Of a stretch of 64,000 nucleotides of DNA, positions 19,385 through 23,621 are shown one piece after another; the first letter of the stretch is position 1, and every line of letters begins with the position of its first letter. Position numbers and translations under genes: made by a program. The notes under the pieces were generated by a model. The model was given only the letters and a program-made list of their open reading frames with translations, did no database searches and had not been told where the DNA came from. Source of the stretch: Flavobacterium sp. AED (GTDB taxonomy: Bacteria; Bacteroidota; Bacteroidia; Flavobacteriales; Flavobacteriaceae); contig NZ_JSYM01000001.1 of NCBI RefSeq assembly GCF_000812945.1, forward strand, positions 248,001 through 312,000, written 5' to 3'.

Positions 19385-20032
19385 TTAGTTATTTTCTAAC
19401 CAATTCTTGAAGTCATAAAAATTTTGTGGGGCTACTCCATGACCTACAGGATACTCTTTGTAGGTAGAATGGATGCCTAATTTTTCTAAAAATGGTTTTG
19501 TTTTTCGGGCCCATTCCACAGGGATTACTTGGTCTACAGTTCCGTGTGAATGGAATATTTTAAGTTTTGTAAAATCATTTCTTAGATAATTTTCTTCCAA
19601 AATAGGTTCGCTTACATAACCGCTCAATGCAACTACCCTTTGCACTTTATCAGGATGCGACAATGCGATTGCATAACTTAAAATGGAGCCTTGGCTGAAG
19701 CCAACCAAAGTCACATTTTTAGCATCTATTGGATAGGTTTGAATTAATTCGTCAATAAATTGAGCGATTAAATCTCTAGAAACTTTTGCCTGTTCATGAT
19801 CTGAAAATTTATTTTGGTCAGCATCAAAATTGATGGCGTACCATGCATAAGCTCCATATTGCATGTTATACGGAGCTCTTGCTGAAATTATGTAATATTC
19901 TTCAGGAAGTTCAGTTGCAAATGAAAATAAGTCTTCCTCGTTGCTGCCGTAACCATGTAATAAAAGTAAAAGCGGGTTTTTGTCTAATTTTATTTTTGGT
20001 TCTCGTATTTTATATTCTAAAGATAAATTCAT
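19385..20032 (-). CDS. Alpha/beta hydrolase, phospholipase/carboxylesterase family
   Basis: The 215 residues match the short cytoplasmic carboxylesterase (YpfH/LypA-like) family. LLLHGYGSNEEDLFSFA is the oxyanion-loop region, GFSQGS contains the nucleophilic serine, SHGTVDQVIPVEWA the acid, and PVGHGV the histidine. No signal peptide is present. Such enzymes hydrolyse short acyl esters and lysophospholipids; the natural substrate is not known. The gene is the second of a pair: the DUF4870/Tic20-like gene ends 4 bases before its start. Confidence 0.88.
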   Translation of the reverse strand: MNLSLEYKIREPKIKLDKNPLLLLLHGYGSNEEDLFSFATELPEEYYIISARAPYNMQYGAYAWYAINFDADQNKFSDHEQAKVSRDLIAQFIDELIQTYPIDAKNVTLVGFSQGSILSYAIALSHPDKVQRVVALSGYVSEPILEENYLRNDFTKLKIFHSHGTVDQVIPVEWARKTKPFLEKLGIHSTYKEYPVGHGVAPQNFYDFKNWLENN

Positions 20033-20036
20033 TTGA

Positions 20037-20363
20037 TTATGATATGTTTTTAAGCCATTTTTGGAAATAAGTCCCTAGTAAGGGAACCGGTTTTGTTTCG
20101 CCTTTTATAGCACTGGTAATACCATAGGACCATAAAACAAATACAAAAATCCACATAGGGGCAGAAATCATTAAGCTGTCAAAATTATTGACAATTAATC
20201 CTAATGATATAAAGGTTAAAGTGAGTCCTAATCCCTGGCGGATGTGGAATGAAGCAAAAGTATTTTTGTCTTCGGAATTCATTGACATCGCTATAAATAC
20301 ACCAATTCCTAAGATATAACTTGTAATTGCAGCAGTTTTTCCTGCTTCGATAATGTTATTCAT
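20037..20363 (-). CDS. DUF4870/Tic20-like small membrane protein
   Basis: The 108-residue protein has four hydrophobic segments: near residues 9-26 (TAAITSYILGIGVFIAMSM), 45-60, 64-85 and 68-90 in overlapping stretches, with the conserved FASFHIRQGLGL between the first and second helix. The motif of an aromatic/His-Arg-Gln pair before a helix is the mark of DUF4870/Tic20-like proteins, small inner-membrane proteins of unknown role. It lies 4 bases upstream of the esterase gene and is cotranscribed with it. The upstream gap contains a dispersed CTTTGTGTCTTTGCGAGA string. Confidence 0.75.
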   Translation of the reverse strand: MNNIIEAGKTAAITSYILGIGVFIAMSMNSEDKNTFASFHIRQGLGLTLTFISLGLIVNNFDSLMISAPMWIFVFVLWSYGITSAIKGETKPVPLLGTYFQKWLKNIS

Positions 20364-20408: not shown

Positions 20409-21662
20409 TTAGGCTAAAATTAATTTTCCTTGATTCACAATCCCGTGAACTTTTCCCTTAATTTCTGTTCCCAGAAAAGCGGAGTTTTTCGATTTTGATA
20501 AAATGGATGATTTTGTAAAAATGCTTTTTGGTTCCGGGTTGAATAGGGTAATGTTAGCTTTTGAGCCTTCATTAATGGTTTGTATATCGATACCAAAAGT
20601 TGATTTTCCCGATGTTAATTTCTCTATTACAGTTTCTAATGGTAGTACTGTCATCAAAGCACCAAACGCACTTTCTAAACCGATTGTTCCATTTTTGGCG
20701 GTGTCAAACTCCATTTTTTTATGTTCAATATCAATTGGATTATGGTCGGAAGTAATCATATCAATAGTTCCGTCTTTTATTCCTTTCAACAACGCTTTTC
20801 TATCGGTTTCTGTTCTGAGTGGTGGAGAAACTTTATATCTTGTATCGAATTCTTCTAGTTTTTCATCTGTTAAAACCAAATTATGCACTGCAACACTACA
20901 CGTTACATTTAATCCATTGGCTTTAGCGTCTTTGATTAATTGTACTGATTTTTTAGTCGAAATCGTTGGAATGTGTAATTTTCCTCCAGTGTATTCTAAT
21001 AGAAACAGATTTCTTGCGATTTGTAATTCTTCGGCAAGATTTGGAATTCCTTTCAAACCTAATCGCGTAGAAACTATACCTTCATTAGCTACTCCGTTTC
21101 CTTTTATGTTTTCGTCTTGAGCAAATGCAATGACTAATCCATCGAAATCCTGAACGTATTGCAATGCTATTTTCAGCAAATTAGCATTGTTCAAACTTTT
21201 AGTATAATCACCAAAAGCAATTGCCCCCGCTTTTTTCATATCATACAATTCCGCCATGTCTTTTCCTTCGCTTTGTTTTGTCAAAGCGCCAATCGGGAAA
21301 AGTTGTGTAGCAAATCCATATGCTTTGTTTACCACAAAATTTACTTGGGATTGATTGTCAATAATAGGGAAGGAATTGGGTTGTAATGCAATTGCAGTAA
21401 AACCGCTTTTGGCGGCTACATCAAGTCCGTTTGCAATGGTTTCTCTATCTTCAAAACCAGGTTCTCCAAGCGAAACACTACTGTCAAACCAGCCTTGTGA
21501 GGCATGCAAATTATCGAGTTTTACTTCATCTGCTTTTTCTAAATTGGGAAGCGATTTACCAATTTTTTTTATAAAACCATCAACAATTAAAATATCTACA
21601 GTCTTGTTATGAAAAGGACTTTTCGAATCGATAATTTTTGCTTCTCTGATGATTATATTCAT
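20409..21662 (-). CDS. Dihydroorotase-like amidohydrolase lacking metal ligands (PyrC paralogue)
   Basis: The 417-residue protein aligns over its full length with dihydroorotases, the third step of pyrimidine synthesis. The metal-binding sites are degraded. The usual DxHxHLREPG reads DSSVSLGEPG at residues 60-69, so both histidines are serine (S62, S64) and the substrate Arg is Gly. The AHCED histidine aligns with Ala181 (FAQDE) and the HVST histidine with Thr233 (HIPTIST). Only Asp152, and Asp306-His307 in TSDHNP, remain. It is therefore probably not a metal-dependent dihydroorotase; comparable inactive PyrC-like proteins serve as structural partners of aspartate carbamoyltransferase. It is 30 bases downstream of the BatA/VWA gene. 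Confidence 0.85.
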   Translation of the reverse strand: MNIIIREAKIIDSKSPFHNKTVDILIVDGFIKKIGKSLPNLEKADEVKLDNLHASQGWFDSSVSLGEPGFEDRETIANGLDVAAKSGFTAIALQPNSFPIIDNQSQVNFVVNKAYGFATQLFPIGALTKQSEGKDMAELYDMKKAGAIAFGDYTKSLNNANLLKIALQYVQDFDGLVIAFAQDENIKGNGVANEGIVSTRLGLKGIPNLAEELQIARNLFLLEYTGGKLHIPTISTKKSVQLIKDAKANGLNVTCSVAVHNLVLTDEKLEEFDTRYKVSPPLRTETDRKALLKGIKDGTIDMITSDHNPIDIEHKKMEFDTAKNGTIGLESAFGALMTVLPLETVIEKLTSGKSTFGIDIQTINEGSKANITLFNPEPKSIFTKSSILSKSKNSAFLGTEIKGKVHGIVNQGKLILA

Positions 21663-21692: not shown

Positions 21693-23621
21693 TTACTTCA
21701 CGAACCGTATAATTGCCATTTCAGTTAGTAGAAATAACAGTGCAAAGATAACAAACCATTTCCAAATTTGATTATCAGTTCTGTCAGTTTGTAAAGTGTC
21801 AAAAAATGATGTTATGGATTCCGTTGTTTTATAATTAGAAATGATATTTTCATTGGCTGCAGCCAAATTACTTTCGGTTCTATTGTAATTAAAACTGATG
21901 TTTTCTAACCATGTTTTTTTATTGTAAATACTATAATTCCCAGCTTGTTCCGGATAATCATTGAAAATCATTTTCACTTTATTATTCAGAATTTGTTGGA
22001 TAGGAATAAATTGTTCGTCTGAGCCTTTAACAGTTAAAATATCGTCTTTATTTAAAGAAGCGTCTGTCAGATGTGGATTTTTATTTCCTATTATGAAAGC
22101 ACTTATGCCATTGTTTTGATTATTCATCGCCATTTTATAAAAAACTGGTACAATCAATGGTGATTGTTGGAAATTTGAATTTAGCGTATTAATTGGTGCT
22201 GAGAAAACTGAAACTGCAGCAACTGAATTTGTTAATGAAGTCAGGAAGATACTTTGGTCTTCATAGGATAAAGCGGCAGGACTTGAACTTGATAAAGCAA
22301 AAGAACTTTTTGTTTTTGGATATTGAAAATTAGTGACTTTATTTTCGAAAACAGTATTGAATATGGGATGATTAAAATTGATTTTAGCAATCAGTTTTTC
22401 TTTGTTTTCTAATGAGTTGAATTTTAGATTTCCAAAGTTCATCAAAAATGAATTCAAATTAGCAACCGAAGCTACTACTGAAGGAATCATAATTAAATTC
22501 CCGCCTTTTTCCACAAAAGATTTTAAAGTGGTTTGAAGCGCTTGGGGAATTTCATCCAGTTCATTTAAAACAATCGCATTTTGCTCTTCCAGTTTGTTAT
22601 AATCCAGTGACCCTAGAGTGTAATTATTGAAATTGAATTCTTCATTGGTATAAATTCGGGAAAGAAAGTTGCTTTTTTCTGGTTCACCAATGCTGATTAC
22701 ATTCGTTTTCTTCGTTTTTGAAATGCTAAAAAACAAAGTGTTGTCATAACTCAAACCATTATCAATAATAGAAACATAACCATGAAAAGCTTGTTTTGGA
22801 ATTGTAAAATTGATGTTTTTTTTCTTTGAGTCTAAAGTTACTATTGTCTTCGCAATAAGTTTGTTGTCATTGTATAAAGAAATAGGAATTGGATTGAATT
22901 CTTCACCATAACTGGATAGTTGGACACTAATTTCATAAAAATTATCTTGTGTTTTATTGATAAAAACACTGTCAATGGAAACGTTATTTTTTTGTTCCGC
23001 TTTTGGAATTATGAATTGAGGGGAGTTTTCTTTGTCACTATTTTTTAATTGTTTTTCATCAAGTCCTACAGCATCCGTAATGATAACAATATCTTTTTTA
23101 AAAGCGGATTTATGTGCTTTTATTTTTGCCATTATAGAAGTAAGCTGAAAAGGCGCAGCACTGTATTTTAGGTTTTGTAAAGAACTTCGAACCGACTTTA
23201 TATCAGTATTCCAATAATTATCAGAATTGGTTAGCAAAGAAAAATTTACATTTTCAGGTGTTTCTTCCAGTAGTTCCTGAACGGCTCTTTTTAGCAATTC
23301 ACCTTTTTTTCCTTTGGCTTGCATACTAAAGGAATTATCCAAAATAATATACAATTCATTAGTAGCGTTTTTGCTGTCTTTTGAATCAAAAAAAGGCTGT
23401 GCAAATGCTACAATAATGCAAGTGAGCAATAATAAACGGCAGGTTAGAAGCAACCATTTTTTGATTTTAGAGCTTTTTCTGGTTTGTATTGAAAGTGCCT
23501 TTAAAAAACGAACATTAGTAAAATATTCTTTTTTGAAACGACGTAATTGAAATAAATGAACCAAAATTGGTACAATCAATAAGAATAGAAAGTATAGAAT
23601 TTCGGGATGTTTAAAATGCAT
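21693..23621 (-). CDS. BatA-domain/VWA-like membrane protein
   Basis: The 642-residue protein starts with the BatA N-terminal helix pair (ILYFLFLLIVPILVHLFQLRRFKKEYFTNVRFLKAL, then KKWLLLTCRLLLLTCIIVAFAQPFF). A von Willebrand A-like segment follows (ELYIILDNSFSMQAKG, the DxSxS metal site, residues about 87-190). The central and C-terminal parts are extracytoplasmic beta-rich sequence, ending in one C-terminal helix (WFVIFALLFLLTEMAIIRF). Proteins of this shape occur next to aerotolerance (Bat) or sphingolipid-linked genes in Bacteroidota but their role is unknown. It is first in a unit with the dihydroorotase-like gene. Confidence 0.85.
   Translation of the reverse strand: MHFKHPEILYFLFLLIVPILVHLFQLRRFKKEYFTNVRFLKALSIQTRKSSKIKKWLLLTCRLLLLTCIIVAFAQPFFDSKDSKNATNELYIILDNSFSMQAKGKKGELLKRAVQELLEETPENVNFSLLTNSDNYWNTDIKSVRSSLQNLKYSAAPFQLTSIMAKIKAHKSAFKKDIVIITDAVGLDEKQLKNSDKENSPQFIIPKAEQKNNVSIDSVFINKTQDNFYEISVQLSSYGEEFNPIPISLYNDNKLIAKTIVTLDSKKKNINFTIPKQAFHGYVSIIDNGLSYDNTLFFSISKTKKTNVISIGEPEKSNFLSRIYTNEEFNFNNYTLGSLDYNKLEEQNAIVLNELDEIPQALQTTLKSFVEKGGNLIMIPSVVASVANLNSFLMNFGNLKFNSLENKEKLIAKINFNHPIFNTVFENKVTNFQYPKTKSSFALSSSSPAALSYEDQSIFLTSLTNSVAAVSVFSAPINTLNSNFQQSPLIVPVFYKMAMNNQNNGISAFIIGNKNPHLTDASLNKDDILTVKGSDEQFIPIQQILNNKVKMIFNDYPEQAGNYSIYNKKTWLENISFNYNRTESNLAAANENIISNYKTTESITSFFDTLQTDRTDNQIWKWFVIFALLFLLTEMAIIRFVK

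Follow-up and report, generated by a model that had tools for sequence, protein, structure and literature searches.

A dihydroorotase homologue with a degenerate metal site in Flavobacterium, a putative non-catalytic partner of PyrB

What does a dihydroorotase (DHO) do once the residues that bind its zinc have been replaced? The question is raised by P0001, a gene in a stretch of 64,000 nucleotides from Flavobacterium sp. AED (hereafter the window, meaning that whole stretch). A preliminary description, made from the sequence alone, had taken its product for an inactive DHO-like subunit of the kind that holds carbamoyltransferase complexes together. Our follow-up makes it likely that P0001 is a dead type-I DHO that has been kept, in the manner of the class A2 ATCases, as a non-catalytic partner of PyrB. 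We favor this reading because the active site is lost while the fold is kept, because the gene is under selection, and because its presence and absence go together with those of one PyrB lineage.

Table 1. Positions of the features discussed (window coordinates unless a locus is given; residue numbers of P0001)
Feature	Position	Strand	Basis or remark
Pseudo-DHO gene P0001 (417 aa, ATG start)	20409..21662	minus	ORF listing, Aquifex DHO homology, predicted fold
BatA-like gene (PF07584, 73.7 bits), VWA-like	21693..23621	minus	directly upstream of pseudo-DHO, 30 bases between
108-aa ORF, without Pfam match	20037..20363	minus	downstream of pseudo-DHO; 66/68 named loci
Phospholipase/carboxylesterase-like ORF (PF02230)	19385..20032	minus	downstream of pseudo-DHO; 68/68 named loci
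Ser62	21477..21479	minus	at Zn-alpha ligand position Aquifex His61; alignment
Ser64	21471..21473	minus	at Zn-alpha ligand position Aquifex His63; alignment
Gly66	21465..21467	minus	at Aquifex Arg65 position; alignment
Glu138	21249..21251	minus	Glu in 61/61 order and 35/35 class homologues; 19/43 intact orthologues
Tyr153	21204..21206	minus	at third Zn-alpha ligand position, Aquifex Asp153; alignment
Phe180	21123..21125	minus	at beta-site position Aquifex His180; alignment
Tyr224 (Aquifex 223)	20991..20993	minus	Tyr in 61/61 order and 31/35 class homologues; 17/43 intact orthologues
Thr233	20964..20966	minus	at beta-site position Aquifex His232; alignment
Asp306	20745..20747	minus	retained Aquifex Asp305; Asp in 55/61 order homologues
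Ile310	20733..20735	minus	at Aquifex His309 position; alignment
Second DHO P0002 (446 aa)	L002:1492-2832	+	PRK09236, 732.9 bits vs cut-off 535

The DHO fold is kept and the metal site is lost

P0001 has the fold and the lineage of a type-I dihydroorotase. Its residues 2-415 align end to end with residues 3-419 of Aquifex DHO (3d6n_A; E 5.9e-68), and the Aquifex chains, among them 4bjh_A (E 3.3e-68), are its best solved relatives. An AlphaFold2 model built with 46 aligned relatives reached a mean pLDDT of 95.0 and a pTM of 0.93. Foldseek matched this model to the Bacillus anthracis DHO 4yiw_A (TM 0.94) and to 3d6n_A (TM 0.93), with 33% identity in the structural alignment to the latter, which bears out the earlier statement that the fold is kept over 417 residues. 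The closest named homologues belong to Flavobacterium species and share at most 88% identity with P0001.

Which of the catalytic residues are gone? The Aquifex enzyme, as described in the accessible portion of PMC3880350, binds a single Zn through His61, His63, and Asp153, with Asp305 as a distant fifth residue. All three members of this alpha-site triad, which defines the zinc site of active type-I DHOs, are replaced in P0001 (Table 1). Among the substrate-site residues Arg65, Asn95, and His309, the first and the last are replaced (G66 and I310) and the second is kept as N96; Aquifex R282 likewise survives, as R283. The preliminary description had listed four replaced metal-site histidines, and the Aquifex alignment agrees with it on S62, S64, and T233. 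Its fourth, A181, was off by one: A181 aligns with Aquifex C181, and H180 with F180. It was also right about Gly66 in place of the substrate arginine, and it named two of the three alpha ligands but overlooked the third (D153 to Y153), as it did the change from H309 to I310.

These losses differ in what they tell us. In the same portion of PMC3880350, the Aquifex H180A/H232A double mutant has near-normal kinetics, with Vmax down 21%. Because that enzyme is active, the loss of H180 and H232 is by itself undiagnostic, and we rejected beta-site histidine loss as decisive evidence. The decisive loss is instead that of the alpha-site triple, because the Zn sits on His61, His63, and Asp153 and the beta histidines are dispensable in Aquifex. 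Family models point the same way: none of the 25 NCBIfam models listed, of 30 matched, reached its own cut-off on P0001; the best of those listed scored 327 against a cut-off of 645 bits, and TIGR00857 fell short by half a bit (278.5 vs 279.05). With the alpha triple gone and no cut-off reached among the models listed, P0001 is very unlikely, on this sequence evidence, to be an active DHO, and the earlier warning that a label to that effect would be wrong was justified.

The altered site is shared across the class

How widespread is this kind of homologue? We searched 98 genomes of the order and found a strong pseudo-DHO homologue, defined as a match at E 2.4e-66 or better, in 61 of them. The other 37 comprised 17 genomes of family f4, 18 of family f14 (genomes of 0.3-0.6 Mb without a pseudo-DHO match), and two single genomes, G003 and G068. 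Beyond the order, all 43 genomes sampled from seven other families of the class (f15-f20 and f22) had a match, at E 3.2e-122 or better.

Residues were read in 96 homologues (the 61 from the order and those of 35 of the 43 class genomes), and not one of them kept the whole triad H61, H63, and D153. Within the order, His63 and His232 were kept in none, His180 in 3, His61 in 21, and Asp153 in 27 of the 61 homologues; the corresponding numbers among the 35 class homologues were 11, 0, 5, 1, and 1. The positions of H61, H63, H180, and H232 vary through 8 to 11 letters in the 61 order homologues. Among 80 named relatives, the changed pocket is almost invariant (S, S/C, G, N, Y, F/Y, T, R, D): Ser stands at H61, Gly at R65, Thr at H232, and Asp at D305 in all 80, Tyr at D153 in 79, and Ser, Cys, or Asn at H63 in 73, 6, and 1. 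Replacement of the alpha site—Ser at H61 in 80/80 and the triad in 0/96—is thus more than chance would give. One order homologue (G058:C1:110479-111672, also L070) has an in-frame TGA inside the pseudo-DHO match.

Ancestry and selection

From what kind of enzyme did the pseudo-DHO arise? We sampled one genome from each further family of the phylum (55 genomes) and obtained the main locus in 52, of which 43 were intact, 7 were pseudo-DHO representatives of the class, and 2 were degenerate (f25 and f44). The intact loci, 42 from other classes and one from family f21 of the same class, all keep the triad; three of them lack Arg282 only. A quick maximum-likelihood tree with 85 rows groups the 32 that are pseudo-DHOs of the class in one clade (SH-aLRT 100) among intact orthologues, and the degenerate f25 and f44 sequences fall outside it; the AU test did not reject a tree with f25 constrained into the clade (P = 0.54), and the constrained tree scored slightly higher. 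Gene order adds to this picture. A pyrB gene stands directly before the DHO, in tandem, in 11 of the 43 intact loci (flanks of 1.5 kb in most), and the same tandem, with a degenerate DHO, occurs in all three genomes of f25 (L122, L291, and L292), which lies outside the class and is possibly a case of independent active-site loss. On these sequence comparisons, the ancestor of the pseudo-DHO was probably an active, pyrB-following DHO of the kind seen in other lineages of the phylum.

A comparison of 36 non-redundant pseudo-DHOs with 22 intact DHOs located the change. The sites most relaxed in the pseudo-DHOs are mostly metal or substrate ligands and include 61, 63, 65, 95, 153, 180, 232, and 309, while others (G56, P67, E193, G201, E210, R282, H306, and K314, for instance) do not vary in either set. 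A few sites are fixed in the pseudo-DHOs only, namely E138 and Y223 in Aquifex numbering (Table 1).

The gene remains constrained. Between the window gene and those of seven congeners, dN/dS was 0.057-0.103 by the NG86 method, values that are rough, as dS is often >1. Five other pairs gave 0.050-0.082, with one close pair from another family at 0.165, and PyrB in the same genomes gave 0.013-0.029. The pseudo-DHO is therefore under purifying selection and is less constrained than PyrB.

A second DHO in the same genome

If P0001 does not make dihydroorotate, another protein should, as the preliminary description had anticipated, and the genome of Flavobacterium sp. AED (3.9 Mb, 99.98% complete) does encode a second DHO, P0002, which scores well above the PRK09236 cut-off (Table 1). 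In its metal motif, DDQVHFREPG, Gln takes the place of the first metal His; the same Gln occurs in the Porphyromonas gingivalis structure 2gwn, which is annotated as a dihydroorotase, and the motif pattern recurs in 7/7 class representatives that have the pseudo-DHO. P0002 is presumably the active DHO of the cell. The genome has four other PF01979 matches besides the DHO proteins. A further DHO-family match is present in 60 of the 61 order genomes with a pseudo-DHO, although the match in one of these 60, G040, is a partial one of 681 bases. In this group, DHO activity would most likely have passed to a second DHO on an unrelated branch, of the PRK09236 type.

One PyrB lineage accompanies the pseudo-DHO

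If the protein is a PyrB partner, does it travel with PyrB? The genome has one PyrB (L003, 1480-2406), which is encoded beside pyrR and on another contig (C2) than the pseudo-DHO (C1), so that the two genes are unlinked; we take pyrB linkage to be a common but non-defining feature of class A2 pseudo-DHO subunits. A second OTCace_N match (L004) sits between two amino-acid kinase ORFs. A search of this genome for PyrI (PF01948), whose control matched in 7 of 14 genomes, found none, nor was PyrI found in any of the 98 order genomes.

In 59 of the 61 order genomes with a pseudo-DHO, PyrB is 63-100% identical to that of the window genome, and in the 43 class genomes of f15-f20 and f22 a PyrB of the same lineage is present throughout, at 64-80%. 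All 17 genomes of family f4, which lack the pseudo-DHO, have a PyrB at 39-43% (two of these matches contain TGA). PyrI turned up in six sampled genomes of the class (f23, 5/5; f24, 1/1), all of them without a pseudo-DHO and with a PyrB at 35-36%. Family f21 lacks the pseudo-DHO as well: in one genome (G161) a PyrB at 45% and an intact DHO stand in tandem, and the other two (G245 and G428) had no PyrB match. A PyrB tree, a quick one with long branches, places the partner lineage in one clade (22 rows, support 99) and the f4 PyrBs on another, long branch (5 rows, support 100). The pseudo-DHO and one PyrB lineage have thus been gained or lost jointly in about three lineages (f4; f23 with f24; and f21). 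Because these co-changes amount to about three lineages only, the genome counts are not independent, and a Fisher test (P = 3.7e-14) was set aside as evidence, the genomes being related. Family f4 (e.g., L281, L284, and L300), with its other PyrB lineage, lacks not only the pseudo-DHO but also the BatA-like neighbor and PyrI.

Several observations count against a PyrB partner. Across most of the class, as in the window genome itself, the neighbor of the gene is a BatA-like gene and not pyrB, and the window PyrB has 308 aa. There are also exceptions to the joint pattern: two genomes (G009 and G013) have the pseudo-DHO and no PyrB match even at E 1e-8, two of the f21 genomes have no PyrB match either, and a search of G068, an assembly of 260 contigs, found the partner PyrB together with the BatA-like gene but did not find a pseudo-DHO, nor is there one in the ~335 bases that follow the BatA-like gene before its contig ends. 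In family f45, moreover, two PyrI genomes also have a strong DHO match.

Comparison with known ATCase assemblies

In class A2 ATCases, the pseudo-DHO subunit and PyrB make up a complex of ~500 kDa, and ATCase activity depends on that subunit. The accessible text of PMC7053772 distinguishes class A1, in which PyrB is joined by an active DHO, from class A2, in which the DHO is inactive. According to the same text, the Pseudomonas aeruginosa pDHO is inactive yet required for ATCase activity, its PyrB chain staying a monomer without activity unless pDHO is supplied, and in Aquifex DHO dimers hold two ATC trimers. It is from the Pseudomonas and Aquifex analogy that we infer a PyrB partner here; the inactivity of P0001 as a DHO, a dodecamer and its stoichiometry, and an effect on PyrB kinetics are likewise inferred. 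DHO-fold dimers would join PyrB trimers into a larger holoenzyme, which the pseudo-DHO would stabilize or tune. The earlier suggestion of an inactive carbamoyltransferase-complex subunit gains indirect support from the co-distribution with one PyrB lineage, the alternation with PyrI, and the linkage to pyrB in relatives.

By the description in that portion of PMC7053772, P0001 resembles the P. aeruginosa pDHO in being a DHO homologue of about 45 kDa without catalytic residues, putatively inactive, with a separate DHO in the genome and a putative PyrB partner. As in class A2 ATCases, moreover, the window genome has a PyrB and no PyrI was found in it. Unlike the P. aeruginosa gene, the window gene is unlinked to pyrB and stands beside a BatA-like gene, and its PyrB has the length given above. 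The nearest solved relative is the Aquifex aeolicus class A1 DHO-ATC complex (3d6n and 4bjh), whose PyrB is also the second-best solved match to the PyrB of the window genome; unlike P0001, which keeps none of the three, the Aquifex DHO retains its Zn-alpha ligands and is active once bound to ATC (as stated in the available part of PMC3880350). The E. coli-type class B subunit PyrI (PF01948) likewise links PyrB trimers without being catalytic itself, a role that is putative for the pseudo-DHO. PyrI and the pseudo-DHO were never found together in a genome of the class (six PyrI genomes), but PyrI is of an unrelated fold and family. A defective DHO kept beside ATCase is also described for the DHO-like domain of yeast Ura2 (parts of PMC7053772 and PMC4581275), which differs in being part of a fused eukaryotic polypeptide and not a separate subunit.

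Alternative roles

Could the protein instead serve its genomic neighbor? The main rival holds that the pseudo-DHO works with the BatA-like protein, or with another envelope or stress protein, outside pyrimidine metabolism, and that lineage replacement produced the PyrB pattern as a by-product. The BatA-like gene is a probable operon partner: it adjoins the pseudo-DHO in 66 of the 68 named loci whose flanks are complete and, among loci of the order covered with longer flanks, in 25 of 31. It is the main rival because an orthologue is present in 54 of the order's 61 genomes with a pseudo-DHO and in 0 of 17 f4 genomes. The PyrB lineage is nevertheless the more constant companion (59/61 and 43/43). 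Seven order genomes with a pseudo-DHO have no BatA-like match at E 1e-20, and all seven have the partner PyrB; among the class representatives, the BatA-like gene appears within the flanks covered in only three of seven. In G020 (f8), where 2.6 kb separate pyrB from the pseudo-DHO, BatA is missing, and the degenerate DHO of f25 stands in tandem with pyrB in all three genomes. We therefore regard a BatA-type partner as improbable. In another family of the class (f16), one genome (G425) has the pseudo-DHO 9.7 kb from pyrB. The BatA-like neighbor of the window gene is conserved in most of the order, and nothing ties it to pyrimidine synthesis.

Might P0001 still be a DHO, or another amidohydrolase, with an unusual or absent metal centre? 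The whole fold is kept, as are D306, R283, and N96; the changed pocket is nearly fixed in the named relatives; and, in the portion of PMC3880350 cited above, an Aquifex DHO without its two beta histidines is active. Yet all three alpha ligands are gone, the ligand positions drift across the order, and the genome has a second DHO, and we give residual activity of this kind a very small chance, smaller than that of a BatA-type partner.

That the gene is a decaying pseudogene on its way out, as lost catalytic residues, faster evolution than in PyrB, and the in-frame TGA of G058 might suggest, is scarcely credible and was rejected, contradicted as it is by the intact 417-aa frame, the low dN/dS, and strong matches in 61 of the 98 genomes of the order and in every sampled genome of seven further families.

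A dead enzyme as a structural subunit

A non-catalytic PyrB partner thus remains the reading that we favor. A dead DHO as an ATCase subunit is already known from Pseudomonas (PMC7053772, in the portion available). Apparently new are the class-wide extent of the case in this phylum, the separation of its gene from pyrB, its probable origin from an active DHO linked to pyrB, and the way it alternates with PyrI or another PyrB. None of the papers listed by searches of the open-licence PMC literature had a title or displayed abstract describing a pseudo-DHO in Bacteroidota or Flavobacterium.

If this reading is correct, ATCase in much of the class, including Flavobacterium and its relatives, would be hetero-oligomeric, one of its subunits being a dead enzyme that similarity-based annotation would label a dihydroorotase. 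Since the real DHO is encoded elsewhere, knock-outs, gene-essentiality calls, and models of pyrimidine synthesis would then be misread. The phylum also offers a natural series for how an enzyme turns into a structural subunit: in other lineages the DHO is active and linked to pyrB, in f25 it is dead and linked, in the window it is dead and unlinked, and where another PyrB lineage is present it is absent.

A more sweeping version of the proposal, which we hold to be doubtful, would make the dead DHO the general regulatory scaffold of ATCase in the class, in place of PyrI. Its emptied pocket, nearly fixed in Flavobacteriaceae, would bind a small effector, and in about three lineages PyrB and its partner would have been swapped as a unit for PyrB-PyrI, a partner-free PyrB, or an active DHO linked to pyrB.

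PyrB itself has one further feature, a long loop of the RPIKKVPS type. We considered it as proof of an interface with the pseudo-DHO and rejected it: the Aquifex ATC of the solved complex has 18 residues there, without the long loop, and f37, which is not tied to the pseudo-DHO, also has 25. The loop measures 25 residues in 60/60 partner-lineage PyrBs and 20 in 6/6 f4 and 4/4 PyrI-type PyrBs. In the window genome it includes NRPIKKVPSLRD (residues about 33-45 of L003:1480-2406), a stretch that is nearly invariant in all 60 PyrBs of the partner lineage.
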